From NCBI RefSeq assembly GCF_000430685.1, contig NZ_AUMM01000022.1, forward strand, positions 1-64,000: 64,000 nt of DNA, read 5' to 3'. The notes below the pieces were generated by a model, which was not told the origin of the DNA, searched no databases, and worked only from the letters and a program-made list of their open reading frames with translations. Every line of letters starts with the position of its first letter. Positions within the stretch are counted from its first letter, which is position 1. The position numbers and the translations under genes are program-made. Of this stretch, positions 25,908 through 33,283 are shown piece after piece. This DNA comes from Tuberibacillus calidus DSM 17572 (GTDB lineage: Bacteria > Bacillota > Bacilli > Bacillales > Sporolactobacillaceae).

Positions 25908-26364
25908 CCTTAAACACCAAAAATTTCTATTATTTTTATTTTATCCTATCCTTTCATCGTTCGACAAGCCAAAGTCAAATGGTGCCGCTCTCACAAATCA
26001 ATTTTTCGGGCACGGATCCTTATTCTTCCCTCTGTAATAGAAGCTCTATTGCGGATAGGGAACATGCCCTATAGGCGCATGCCATCTTACAACTTTACAC
26101 TTCTATCTTACACCGCCAATTAGAGGGGTAAATGCTCAAGCTTGAAAATAAATGAATCGTTTTGTATTATTCCGATGGTAAAGGTTCTGGAATGAATCTG
26201 GTAATAAGCATCCCCTTCTGCCACTATGCATTTCTTATTTTCTTCGAACATCACGTATTTAAAAGAAAACAGAAAAAAAACTTTCATTTTTTTGTCGAAA
26301 ATACTATACTTTTGTCGAATATAATAGTATTATAGTCCCAAGATGTATATAAATATTGAACATT
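25908..26364. other. Intergenic region upstream of the riboswitch
   Basis: About 450 bases with no supported gene. AT-rich sequence at 26290-26340 (repeated ttttgtcgaa and tataatag) probably holds the riboswitch promoter, but I cannot fix the -35 and -10 with confidence. Confidence 0.4.
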
Positions 26365-26451
26365 CCGAAAAGGGCAAACTTACTGAAAGATAAGTACGCA
26401 AAGCCACGGGCCTAAGGTCAATATGGCTATGGCAGCCGGGCCGCCGAGGAT
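26365..26451 (+). ncRNA. Cyclic di-GMP-I (GEMM) riboswitch
   Basis: The core of the class I aptamer is present in order: a gggcaaact block, a GAAA tetraloop hairpin with arms acttact and gataagt, then the highly conserved acgcaaagccacgggcctaa, and the second hairpin ending in atggcagccgggccgcc. These contain the A and G residues that sandwich the ligand and the tetraloop receptor. A terminator stem follows within 10 bases, so ligand binding probably controls premature termination. The downstream target is not an ordinary gene; see the entries at 26506 and 26781. Confidence 0.93.
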
Positions 26452-26460
26452 GTAGAAGTA

Positions 26461-26492
26461 TGTCTACGCCTTTTTCGGTGTAGACATTTTTT
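26461..26492 (+). terminator. Expression-platform terminator of the riboswitch
   Basis: A 10-bp stem with one wobble (26461-26470 with 26477-26486) followed by T6, placed directly after the aptamer. Its 5' arm could compete with pairing at the aptamer's closing stem. Whether c-di-GMP favours or prevents termination cannot be read with certainty. Confidence 0.8.
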
Positions 26493-26505
26493 ATGGATGT
26501 AGAAG

Positions 26506-26658
26506 GTGAAAATAATTTTACAGCGGATCATGACTGGTTCCCGAATTAATGTTCGTTTAGGGAATGATGATTGGTTGGATGATGGGGCATTACGGAAAGG
26601 CGGGCCCATGACTCTGCAAAACTTGAATCTACATCCTCATATGGCTATGAACACGTGA
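26506..26658 (+). CDS. Small open frame directly after the riboswitch
   Basis: Fifty codons from a GTG, 14 bases past the terminator T run, with GTAGAAG just before it. The peptide begins MKIILQRIMTGSRINVRLG and ends NLNLHPHMAMNT; no family is recognised and there is no signal or membrane segment. It is the first frame a read-through transcript would meet. It may simply be chance, and it overlaps a small membrane-protein frame on the other strand. Confidence 0.25.
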   Translation: MKIILQRIMTGSRINVRLGNDDWLDDGALRKGGPMTLQNLNLHPHMAMNT

Positions 26659-26736
26659 CACACCGTAACGGAAGACAGTGATGCTTCCCAGCAGGAGGAG
26701 CCCAAAAACCAAAGTAAATCCAATATATGGACCCAT
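26629..26736 (-). CDS. Possible 35-residue single-span membrane peptide
   Basis: The frame starts with ATG at 26736, with GGATAGGGG about 6 bases upstream, and encodes one strong hydrophobic span (YIGFTLVFGLLLLGSITVF) followed by a short basic tail (RYGVSRVHSHMRM). Such peptides are common in spore formers, but this one is not assigned to a family. It lies antisense to the riboswitch-controlled transcript. Confidence 0.4.
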   Translation of the reverse strand: MGPYIGFTLVFGLLLLGSITVFRYGVSRVHSHMRM

Positions 26737-26780
26737 TACACGCCCCTATCCAATAACAATCATTCAAGCATTCGCATTAG

Positions 26781-26849
26781 AAAGAGGTTGACCACCTGAG
26801 GGCGGCCCTCGTATACTTAGGGTAATCCTCAACAGATCAACCTCTTTTT
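26781..26849 (+). terminator. Long-loop terminator ending the riboswitch transcript
   Basis: Perfect 11-bp arms (26781-26791, aaagaggttga, with 26837-26847) followed by a T run; the 45-base loop itself contains a small hairpin around gagggcggccctc. It would end a transcript begun at the riboswitch after about 480 bases. Confidence 0.6.
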
Positions 26850-26925
26850 CACTCTACTGGCACGGTGTTGAACTGCCGTCCACCAATGATGACACTTAGA
26901 AGTGGAGTTTAATCGACTATTACCT

Positions 26926-27186
26926 ATGAACGAAAACAATAAACCACACAAGAACTCTTTATGCTTCAATTTATTTATGATATTTCCATTCCTACTCTTT
27001 ATCATCATATTGTTAACGGTCTTTAATCAAACTTATCTCCCATTTTCACTTGTACATGCACCTTCACGTATAGAGGTGGCGGCTTCTTACGGAGGTATGT
27101 CAAAATGGAGAGCCACTTCAATTATATTTCATCCCGTTTTAGGCAATACAAGATATATAAAGCTGAATGTTTGGGGCGCATTTTGA
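26926..27186 (+). CDS. Possible small membrane protein
   Basis: A frame of 86 residues from ATG 26926 (a GTG eight codons earlier is also open). A basic start (MNENNKPHKNSL) is followed by one long hydrophobic stretch (FLLFIIILLTVFNQTYLPF) and a soluble tail containing RIEVAASYGGMSKW. No family is recognised and no good ribosome binding site is seen, so it may be a non-functional frame. Confidence 0.3.
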   Translation: MNENNKPHKNSLCFNLFMIFPFLLFIIILLTVFNQTYLPFSLVHAPSRIEVAASYGGMSKWRATSIIFHPVLGNTRYIKLNVWGAF

Positions 27187-27325
27187 TAACAAGTCATCAA
27201 CTGTTGACCGGCTATAAGATATATCAATCGATTGCCGATTTTTTATCCAGCATTCAATTGGTAGCCGATCAGTTAAACGGTTAGGTGGAGAACCCATAAA
27301 ATATTTGAGATTTATGGAGGTAAAT

Positions 27326-27493
27326 ATGACTGAGGAAAAACGGAAGGAACGACTGATTAAGGAAATAAACAAAAAGCGCCGTCAGTTAGATGACTTCGCG
27401 AAAAAAAAGGGTTTAAACCACGATGCCACTATAAAATGCAGTCAAGAATTGGACCGATTGATTCTGGAATGGCTCAAAGTCAATCATTTTTAG
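27326..27493 (+). CDS. Spo0E-like sporulation phosphatase
   Basis: A 55-residue helical hairpin protein. The signature SQELDRLILEW near the C terminus is the Spo0E family motif, whose SQELD segment contacts Spo0A. Family members dephosphorylate Spo0A~P and so delay sporulation. The start at 27326 has GGAGG at ideal spacing; upstream in-frame starts do not. It is monocistronic as far as can be seen. This is one of the better indications that the organism forms spores. Confidence 0.88.
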   Translation: MTEEKRKERLIKEINKKRRQLDDFAKKKGLNHDATIKCSQELDRLILEWLKVNHF

Positions 27494-28986: not shown

Positions 28987-29727
28987 TTATTTCGTTACGG
29001 GTTTATCACGTAAGACGACAATGTTCACGCGCCGATTCATCGCTTGGTGGGCTTTGGTGTCATTTGGAACCCGAGGGTTGAACTCTCCGTAACTCGTAAA
29101 ACGAATCCGTTCCGGGGCGATTCCGTCCTGATTAATCAGAAACATCGCCACATTCTCGGCCCGAGCAGCCGCCAGATCCCAATTGGAATGGAATTCTGTC
29201 GCGTAACGGATTGGATTATTATCCGTATGCCCTTCGACGGATATCGGATTCTTCACAGATTGCAATATGCCACCGACCCTTTTAAGGACAGGGATGGCTT
29301 CAGGTTTAATGTCCGCCTTTCCTAAATCAAATAAAATTTCCTCTTTTAAGGTGATCTGTACACCCTGTGGCAAATTATTCAGCTCTAATTGGGTTTGTAA
29401 ATGATTTTCTTGTATGTACTTTTCCAATCGAATATACAGTTGATCCAATTGCTTTTCATTGTTTTTATCTTTTTTTTGTGCCGGAATCTCAGGTAGCTTA
29501 ATGTCCCGAGCTGGTGGGTCGATCGATCGGTCGACGATCGCTTCTCCCTGAAACGCCGTGCGCAAAGACTGAACCAGCGCATTAAAGCGTTCCTTTTCCA
29601 ACTCACTCATAGAATATAAAACGACAAAAAAGACAAGTAATAGCGTAATCAGGTCAGAATACGTGATTAACCAACGCTCGTGATTATCGTGACTCGTATG
29701 TTTTTTTCGCCGGCTTTTTCTAGCCAT
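28987..29727 (-). CDS. motS: Flagellar stator subunit MotS/MotB
   Basis: 246 residues. A basic tail precedes one membrane span, WLITYSDLITLLLVFFVVLY, whose Asp is the ion-binding residue. A plug and linker region (about 60-110) leads to a C-terminal OmpA-like domain (about 120-240) that grips peptidoglycan (VEGHTDNNPIRYATEFHSNW, NRRVNIVVL). The LVFF pattern in the span is closer to the Na+-type MotS than to H+-type MotB of B. subtilis, which is a judgement from memory of those sequences. The start overlaps the end of motP by 8 bases. Confidence 0.88.
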   Translation of the reverse strand: MARKSRRKKHTSHDNHERWLITYSDLITLLLVFFVVLYSMSELEKERFNALVQSLRTAFQGEAIVDRSIDPPARDIKLPEIPAQKKDKNNEKQLDQLYIRLEKYIQENHLQTQLELNNLPQGVQITLKEEILFDLGKADIKPEAIPVLKRVGGILQSVKNPISVEGHTDNNPIRYATEFHSNWDLAAARAENVAMFLINQDGIAPERIRFTSYGEFNPRVPNDTKAHQAMNRRVNIVVLRDKPVTK

Positions 29728-30511
29728 TCGCGCTCACACCCGGAAACTCGCTGTTTTTCCCGCTCTTCTGATCCAAAAATGCACTTAACTTGCTCTTGAG
29801 CACGGTGGGATTTTCCCCATACTGAATCGACATCAACCCTTCTGCTTGCAACTCCATTAGTAGAATTTCCTGTTGCAGGCGAGCTTTAATTTTATTAAAA
29901 ATGGGGAGATAAATGAGATTGGCACTCGACACACCGTATAAGGTGGCGACGAAGGCAACGGCAATCGATGGCCCCAGTTTGCTTGGTTCATCAAGACTTC
30001 CGAGAACGTGAACGAGTCCCATAACCGTCCCGATAATCCCCATTGTTGGAGCAAAACCACCGGCAGCTTCAAACATTCTTCCGATGGACAGGATTTCCTC
30101 TTCATACCGCTCGATTTTCCGATTGAGAATGTCTTCAATCATTTCTGCCTCAGTACCGTCGACAATCATTTGAATGCCTTCTTTTAAAAAGGCATTATCC
30201 CCCAACTTGTCGATATGGCCTTCCAATGCCAGCAAACCTTCCCGGCGTGAGATATTGGACAATGAAATTAATTGTTCAATCATTTCTTCCGGTTCAGTCC
30301 GTTTTTCTAAAAAAGCATATTTTAATATAAAAGGAAGGCGTTTTAAAGTTTTCCATGGCGTGCTGAGAATCACCGCCCCGAACGTACCGCCAAAGACAAT
30401 CATAGCTGCCGTTCCCTCAATCAAAGCAGCAAACGTTCCGCCTTCCAATAAAAAACCAATCAATAAAGATAAGATCCCGAGCACAAGTCCAATCAACGTT
30501 GTCAAATCCAT
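29720..30511 (-). CDS. motP: Flagellar stator subunit MotP/MotA
   Basis: 263 residues with four membrane spans (about 4-20, 32-50, 150-172 and 180-203). The large cytoplasmic loop contains the charged residues that contact the rotor (LISLSNISRREGLLALEGH). PTMGIIGTVMGLVHVLGSL and LGPSIAVAFVATLYG form the channel-side helices. Overall it resembles MotP of Bacillus more than MotA. With MotS it forms the ion-driven stator of the flagellum. GGAGGGTG precedes the ATG. Stator genes lie alone here without other flagellar genes. Confidence 0.88.
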   Translation of the reverse strand: MDLTTLIGLVLGILSLLIGFLLEGGTFAALIEGTAAMIVFGGTFGAVILSTPWKTLKRLPFILKYAFLEKRTEPEEMIEQLISLSNISRREGLLALEGHIDKLGDNAFLKEGIQMIVDGTEAEMIEDILNRKIERYEEEILSIGRMFEAAGGFAPTMGIIGTVMGLVHVLGSLDEPSKLGPSIAVAFVATLYGVSSANLIYLPIFNKIKARLQQEILLMELQAEGLMSIQYGENPTVLKSKLSAFLDQKSGKNSEFPGVSANG

Positions 30512-31600: not shown

Positions 31601-33283
31601 ATGCGCCGCATGAAACCCCACCAGTTAACTGCAGGACTTATACTCGGACAAGATGTGTATAAAGAACGACGCATTGTATACAGAAAAGGCTTAATCTTGA
31701 CGGATGAAGTCATTCAGAACCTTATTGAATGGCGCAAGAGCCCGGTTTATGTCGAAGATCGCTTTGAGTCAATGCTGAAAGACTCCCCCTCATCGCATGC
31801 GAAACTCTTTTACGAGCGTTTGATCTATATCGGTCAGGAAAATCGCTATGGTTTTGCCATGATGGAAGAAAGCACGTACCGCTATCTGGAAACGCTTTTT
31901 ACTACCATGCTTTCCGACAAACGAATCTACCGCTTGTTAAAACAATTGGAAAAATGGAGCCCGGACAGTTTTGACCATTCGATTGATGTTTTTGTACTCG
32001 GCACCTTGTTAGGAAGGAAACTCGGCATACCAGACGTAGAACAATTCTCAATGGGTTGCCTTTTACATGATGTTGGAAAGTTGGAAATCCCCTCCTATAT
32101 TTTGGAGAAGAAGAGCAAGCTCACCCGAGCGGAATACGAACTGGTCAAGCATCATGCGGCCATGGGCGCGACGAAGTTAAAGGAACTTGGATTTGATGAC
32201 CGGATTATTAAAATCGCTCGCTCCCATCATGAAAGGCTTGATGGGACAGGCTATCCGGACGGGTTGAGCGGAGCGCAATTGGATGTGGATTTGCAAATCA
32301 TCTCGATCGTTGATGTGTATTCCGCTTTGACACTCCCTCGTTCTTACCGAAAGCCATTGGCAGCGCCGGAAGCTTTGGAACGGATATTAGAGGATGAATC
32401 CGCCTACAATCCTAAGCTTTTATTTACATTCATCCATTTATTAAATATCTATCCGCCGCAAGCAGAAGTCCGGCTGTCAAACGGTCAAGTCGGCACAACG
32501 GTTTATCAAGAACATTGGCAGGCGAATGTCCCTACGATCCATATCCATGATTCCGGTGAAACATTGCGCTTGCCAACTGACCTCTCTTTGGTCGTAACGG
32601 AAATCTTAAATTGGAATCGTTTGAGAGTCGACCAAAGTTTTATGGATCTATGGCAGTCATTTATCCAAAGCCTAAAGGAAGGAAAAAAGGAAAATGCGCT
32701 CACCGCTTTTGAAATCCTTTCTGATGGCAAACGAGTTGAAGATATTTATATTGATATCATCGATAAAGCGGTAAGAGAAATCGAAGACGGCACGTCCACC
32801 GAAAAGGAAGTTGAACAAGCCAGGCGCATCGCTTGCGATATCCTGGGTCAGAAATTAATCGATTTTGCACCCTCCTATCAAACGACTAAGCATCAAACCA
32901 TTGTTGTCACCGCCATAAACGATAACCAACTTTTACCGACAAAGATTTTACACGATATGTTATTTGTTAATGGATGGAAAACCTATTACTTGCCTTTACA
33001 TATGAACGAACAGCGATTAAAGCGCATCATTGAGAAAAACAACATCACCCATCTCGCTTTCTATATCCCAACCGAATTCGATGCCAAAGTCACTGACAGC
33101 ATGCTCAAAGAGCTCTTAGACGTTTTTCCACACCTTTCTGCAATCGTTTACGGGGCATGTAGCCACCTAATTAGTAAAAAAGCACATATACAAGCGACTA
33201 ATGTTCGACATTTGCTCGAAAAAATCAAGAAAATAGAAGAAAATATCCCCTCATCACAAGAACAGGCGCCCTCGACTCAATAG
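31601..33283 (+). CDS. HD-GYP protein with C-terminal cobalamin-binding-like module
   Basis: 560 residues without a membrane segment. An N-terminal domain (about 1-50; GLILGQDVYKERRIVYRKG) is like those often found before HD-GYP. The HD-GYP domain (about 120-290) is complete: LLHDVGKLEIP, KHHAAMG, SHHERLDGTGYPDG and SIVDVYSAL, so it should hydrolyse c-di-GMP. Residues about 340-430 look like the helical cap of B12-binding proteins (EDIYIDIIDKAVREIEDG), and 430-545 like the Rossmann part (VVTAINDN, VNGWKTYYLP), but the cobalt-binding DxHxxG is replaced by DNQLLP, so ligand binding is doubtful. ATG after GGAG; terminator overlaps its end. Confidence 0.82.
   Translation: MRRMKPHQLTAGLILGQDVYKERRIVYRKGLILTDEVIQNLIEWRKSPVYVEDRFESMLKDSPSSHAKLFYERLIYIGQENRYGFAMMEESTYRYLETLFTTMLSDKRIYRLLKQLEKWSPDSFDHSIDVFVLGTLLGRKLGIPDVEQFSMGCLLHDVGKLEIPSYILEKKSKLTRAEYELVKHHAAMGATKLKELGFDDRIIKIARSHHERLDGTGYPDGLSGAQLDVDLQIISIVDVYSALTLPRSYRKPLAAPEALERILEDESAYNPKLLFTFIHLLNIYPPQAEVRLSNGQVGTTVYQEHWQANVPTIHIHDSGETLRLPTDLSLVVTEILNWNRLRVDQSFMDLWQSFIQSLKEGKKENALTAFEILSDGKRVEDIYIDIIDKAVREIEDGTSTEKEVEQARRIACDILGQKLIDFAPSYQTTKHQTIVVTAINDNQLLPTKILHDMLFVNGWKTYYLPLHMNEQRLKRIIEKNNITHLAFYIPTEFDAKVTDSMLKELLDVFPHLSAIVYGACSHLISKKAHIQATNVRHLLEKIKKIEENIPSSQEQAPSTQ

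Follow-up and report, generated by a model that had tools for sequence, protein, structure and literature searches.

What does a c-di-GMP riboswitch control when no normal gene follows it? This question is raised by a locus in the 64-kb stretch of Tuberibacillus calidus DNA analyzed here (the window), which belongs to an assembly of 3.24 Mb in 81 contigs. The first-pass annotation had described the locus as a c-di-GMP riboswitch heading a short transcript without a normal gene, and this is the right description, as no recognizable gene lies between the two terminators, T1 and T2 (Table 1). The feature is real and is a known class, the c-di-GMP-I riboswitch, in an unusual state. Of the readings considered below, the best supported is that the element once served a stand-alone gene for an EAL c-di-GMP phosphodiesterase (PDE) and is its orphaned leader, the gene having been lost or replaced and the leader left intact; we regard this as somewhat probable. 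Several features had been missed at first pass: the Spo0A boxes, the homology to EAL leaders, the missing stand-alone EAL gene, an insertion sequence (IS) relic and a Spo0E gene.

Table 1. Features of the riboswitch locus in the window, and the SinI loci of related genomes
Feature	Position	Strand	Basis
Spo0A box 1, exact TTTGTCGAA	26291-26299	+	motif match
Predicted promoter	26305-26333	+	-35 TATACT 26305-26310, 17-nt spacer, -10 TATTAT 26328-26333; sequence and alignment with three EAL-gene leaders
Spo0A box 2, exact TTTGTCGAA, within the -35/-10 spacer	26311-26319	+	motif match, conserved in EAL leaders
c-di-GMP-I riboswitch aptamer	26363-26448	+	RF01051, 78.8 bits vs gathering score 35, all 87 model positions (1-87)
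Antiterminator 5′ arm CCGAAAAGGGC	26365-26375	+	pairs with 26468-26478
Intrinsic terminator T1	26460-26487	+	11-bp stem, then T6
Antiterminator 3′ arm GCCTTTTTCGG (terminator loop and upper stem)	26468-26478	+	pairs with 26365-26375
50-codon GTG frame, unlikely to be a gene	26506-26658	+	start-site energy -4.0, no relatives
35-codon hydrophobic frame, unsupported as a gene	26629-26736	-	start-site energy -7.7, codon score -0.4, no relatives
Second terminator-like hairpin T2	26779-26849	+	13-bp outer stem, U-rich 3′ arm, -30.1 kcal/mol, z -3.6
Degenerate IS200/IS605-type end	26870-26905	+	matches end of pBM19/phiOH2 elements; score 29 vs best of 300 shuffles 22
Degenerate IS200/IS605-type opposite end	27029-27107	+	77% identity with phiOH2 and pBM19
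Spo0E-like Spo0A~P phosphatase gene	27326-27493	+	PF09388, 4.2e-14; ATG with GGAGG; start-site energy -9.9
Aptamer-SinI loci	G009:C1:663843 (L198), G003:C5:78330 (L197), G010:C9:84421 (L177)		PF08671

The annotated order of aptamer and terminator, followed by a 50-codon frame and a second terminator before any larger gene, is borne out by the features in Table 1. The RF01051 match is the sole Rfam match in the window, and from it the aptamer is predicted to bind c-di-GMP. The area around T1 folds better than shuffled sequences (z -2.8 and -4.0). The 11-nt antiterminator pairing has an energy of -18.3 kcal/mol, is the strongest among the leaders shown, and was equalled in 0 of 300 shuffles. When the growing transcript is folded, the aptamer helices form first, the alternative pairing of CCGAAAAGGGC with GCCTTTTTCGG next and the terminator last. 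In the predicted fold the antiterminator arm overlaps the 5′ strand of the aptamer, making the expression platform and the aptamer mutually exclusive; therefore, ligand should favor T1. With c-di-GMP bound, the aptamer 5′ strand would be held, T1 would form and transcription would stop near 26487. With no ligand, CCGAAAAGGGC would pair with GCCTTTTTCGG and transcription would continue past T1, to end at T2 around 26849 as an RNA of about 0.5 kb carrying no well-supported frame. Modeled in this way, the element would be an OFF switch, with termination at high c-di-GMP and readthrough at low c-di-GMP.

The predicted promoter, for which an alternative -10 (TATAAT) exists at 26320-26325, contains one of two exact Spo0A boxes, so that a 0A box (TTTGTCRAA) is found within the core promoter, as in Spo0A-controlled promoters. 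Judging from random 130-nt stretches of the same loci, exact matches to this motif are expected at 0.0034 per 130 nt. Of the 44 upstream regions of c-di-GMP-I riboswitches examined in the family, the only ones to contain exact boxes are the present one and those of two EAL genes, in genome G003 and Pullulanibacillus camelliae. Moreover, box 2 and its position are conserved in the EAL leaders of G078, G003 and P. camelliae, where the alignment shows that both the TTTTGTC core and the distance to the -10 are kept. By its binding-site motif, the promoter is a candidate Spo0A target, and Spo0A~P bound between -35 and -10 would be expected to repress it. Such a layout, with the Spo0A box lying in the core promoter of a c-di-GMP-I leader, recurs in other genera and would link the control of sporulation with the turnover of c-di-GMP.

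The similarity is not confined to the box. In the same three relatives, stand-alone EAL phosphodiesterase genes have leaders that can be aligned with the present one across promoter, Spo0A box, aptamer and terminator; of these relatives, P. camelliae is a species of Sporolactobacillaceae and G078 belongs to a different family. When whole leaders (promoter, aptamer and terminator) are scored within the family, four of the five closest precede EAL genes and one precedes sda, an EAL-likeness that partly reflects the terminators present in all EAL leaders. When only the aptamer is compared, the sda leader ranks first within the family (126.5 vs at most 117 for the family EAL leaders). An EAL relic downstream was considered and rejected, as neither an EAL gene nor a relic of one was found in 26488-27330. 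A stand-alone EAL gene is also absent from the assembly, whose sole EAL protein is a PAS-GGDEF-EAL fusion (the fusion being read from sequence) on another contig, C6. The locus thus combines an EAL-type leader with the absence of both a stand-alone EAL gene and an EAL relic; therefore, we read it as an orphaned PDE leader. The EAL gene would have been lost from the locus, and the RNA would no longer have a dedicated protein product. Against this, the very well kept platform argues that something is still regulated. It is also possible that the leader has moved, or that a shared ancestral leader was reused, because the neighboring genes differ from those at the EAL loci of the relatives. An orphaned PDE leader would be a plausible case of a riboswitch outliving its gene, and could show the pace at which RNA switches decay or are reused.

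Three outputs had been proposed at first pass: a tiny protein, a small RNA, or an antisense RNA against a 35-residue membrane peptide of the opposite strand. A genuine tiny protein in the 50-codon frame would be in keeping with the family, whose c-di-GMP-I riboswitches often lie before very small proteins, among them SinI and membrane proteins of about 50 aa, and the codon score of the frame, 6.1, is 1.8 sd above wrong-frame windows, between coding and non-coding values. However, its start-site energy of -4.0 kcal/mol (median for genes, -8.5) indicates a poor ribosome site, no relative was found at E <0.01 in 196 genomes, and neither Pfam nor NCBIfam gave a match. As the homologues and the good ribosome site of a small-protein gene are both missing, a tiny protein is very unlikely. 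In the same frame, a relic of a GlnQ-type ABC ATPase was tried on the strength of a collinear 41-residue match (GlnQ profile 4.6 vs at most 2.1 in 100 shuffles); at about 4 bits, picked post hoc and covering one short internal stretch, it is a weak lead and was not retained. A DNA match between 26555-26587 and contig C4 is due to chance, the C4 site being an unrelated coding region.

The antisense proposal fared worse still. It draws on the overlap of the two frames and on the fair ribosome site of the 35-codon frame (-7.7 kcal/mol), but the codon use of this frame is neutral (-0.4), its best match among the 196 genomes (E 0.011) does not qualify as a relative, and no promoter-like site was found on the minus strand there. 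A conserved peptide with its own promoter, as in a type I toxin-antitoxin-like antisense pair, was thus not found, and we consider it highly improbable that the transcript acts against such a peptide. The remaining proposal is the small RNA. In this reading, a functional small RNA with its end at 26849 would now be under the control of the riboswitch, and would be produced at low c-di-GMP when Spo0A~P permits. The transcript is indeed bracketed by two terminators, and the promoter, aptamer and antiterminator are intact; on the other hand, the interior (26520-26780) has no unusual or excess structure, and nothing downstream of the leader has a sequence relative in 196 genomes, plasmids or phages. 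A functional small RNA therefore seems unlikely, if less so than either of the other two outputs.

Beyond T2, the region 26870-27107 is, by its sequence, a decayed, non-autonomous IS200/IS605-type relic. Both of its ends, characteristic of such elements, score better than shuffled sequences. In plasmid pBM19 the counterpart of the 27029-27107 end adjoins tnpA, and phiOH2 is a phage; no similarity to tnpA or another transposase gene was found within 26870-27107. A 94-aa frame lies inside the relic, and the idea that it is a permease relic was dropped, as the profile gave nothing. A separate 59-aa frame (27105-27284), whose ribosome site is strong, begins within the IS end and extends as far as the Spo0E gene.

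The next convincing gene on the plus strand is this Spo0E-like gene, 839 bases past T1. Readthrough of both T1 and T2 into it would mean that low c-di-GMP leads to more dephosphorylation of Spo0A~P, and that Spo0A exerts feedback on the phosphatase that acts on it. Consistent with this, the gene is the next real one on the strand, no canonical promoter was found just before it, and Spo0A boxes lie upstream; a rough, post hoc estimate for this genome gives a probability of about 0.0006 that a Spo0E gene would fall by chance in the 1 kb downstream. Nevertheless, T2 and the IS relic intervene, promoter-like sites are present at 26788 and 26977, and no Spo0E neighbor was found for any other riboswitch in the family, leaving such readthrough a low probability. 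A broader version, in which the element is a live two-signal gate, with Spo0A~P acting on the promoter and c-di-GMP on the riboswitch to set jointly whether the RNA of about 0.5 kb, or readthrough into the Spo0E-like gene, is produced, is tentative and slightly less doubtful. If true, it would give c-di-GMP a direct input to the sporulation phosphorelay via a riboswitch. Elsewhere within 7 kb of the riboswitch, the window carries MotA/MotB-type genes (28987-30511) and an HD-domain protein (31601-33283) with an HD-GYP-like motif, a possible c-di-GMP phosphodiesterase.

The genes that follow c-di-GMP-I riboswitches in relatives include EAL genes and those for secreted and SH3-type, CheY-like and STAS-like proteins, SinI and others; except for SinI and Sda, these names were read from sequence with no profile match behind them. 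In three family members, SinI antirepressor genes directly follow the aptamers (E 1e-9 to 5e-12), apparently as translational switches, and our literature search found no report of a link between a c-di-GMP-I riboswitch and SinI. In P. camelliae (G010:C1:604392, L165), a riboswitch with a terminator is followed, about 330 nt past the aptamer, by a gene for the sporulation inhibitor Sda (PF08970, 2e-18), the only such sda case in the relatives. The genome studied here has two c-di-GMP-I riboswitches, and the second (C10, L033:5458-5979) precedes a 70-aa frame similar to a 63-aa frame that follows a riboswitch in P. camelliae (G010:C34:12273, L191); neither frame belongs to a Pfam family. Two further riboswitches (L186 and L195, at G009:C1:874804 and 834453) stand directly before look-alike membrane proteins of about 50 aa, again with no Pfam family. 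In Neobacillus niacini strains (L218, L226), a Spo0A box and a c-di-GMP-I aptamer precede a 45-46-aa membrane protein, and the same pattern of box and aptamer is matched by the N. niacini records L231 and L233.

Comparison with known systems may help to place the element. With the RF01051 class it shares the aptamer over all model positions and a platform built on a transcription terminator, and it differs in having no identifiable regulated gene. The stand-alone EAL leaders of P. camelliae, G003 and G078 share with it the promoter spacing, the Spo0A box in the spacer, the aptamer and the terminator, whereas here the EAL gene is missing and an extra Spo0A box lies upstream. The Bc1 riboswitch of Bacillus thuringiensis also has two terminators in tandem after a c-di-GMP-I aptamer, the second of which masks the ligand response (PMC11218506). 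In Bc1 the terminators are 28 bp apart and genes follow, whereas here they are about 290 nt apart, with a gene neither between them nor close after. By analogy, T2 could mask the ligand response here for anything beyond 26849. At high ligand, transcription ends early at the c-di-GMP-I riboswitches of Clostridioides difficile (PMC3649979). Cdi1_9 and Cdi1_12 are of the same class, with ligand-driven early termination as predicted here; they have defined target genes, while the direction of the present switch is a prediction. Finally, according to a 2021 paper, none of the c-di-GMP riboswitches of C. difficile seemed to act on genes related to sporulation, the conditions used not being favorable to sporulation (PMC8653836). 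Therefore, a link between a c-di-GMP riboswitch and Spo0E or sda would be new if shown.
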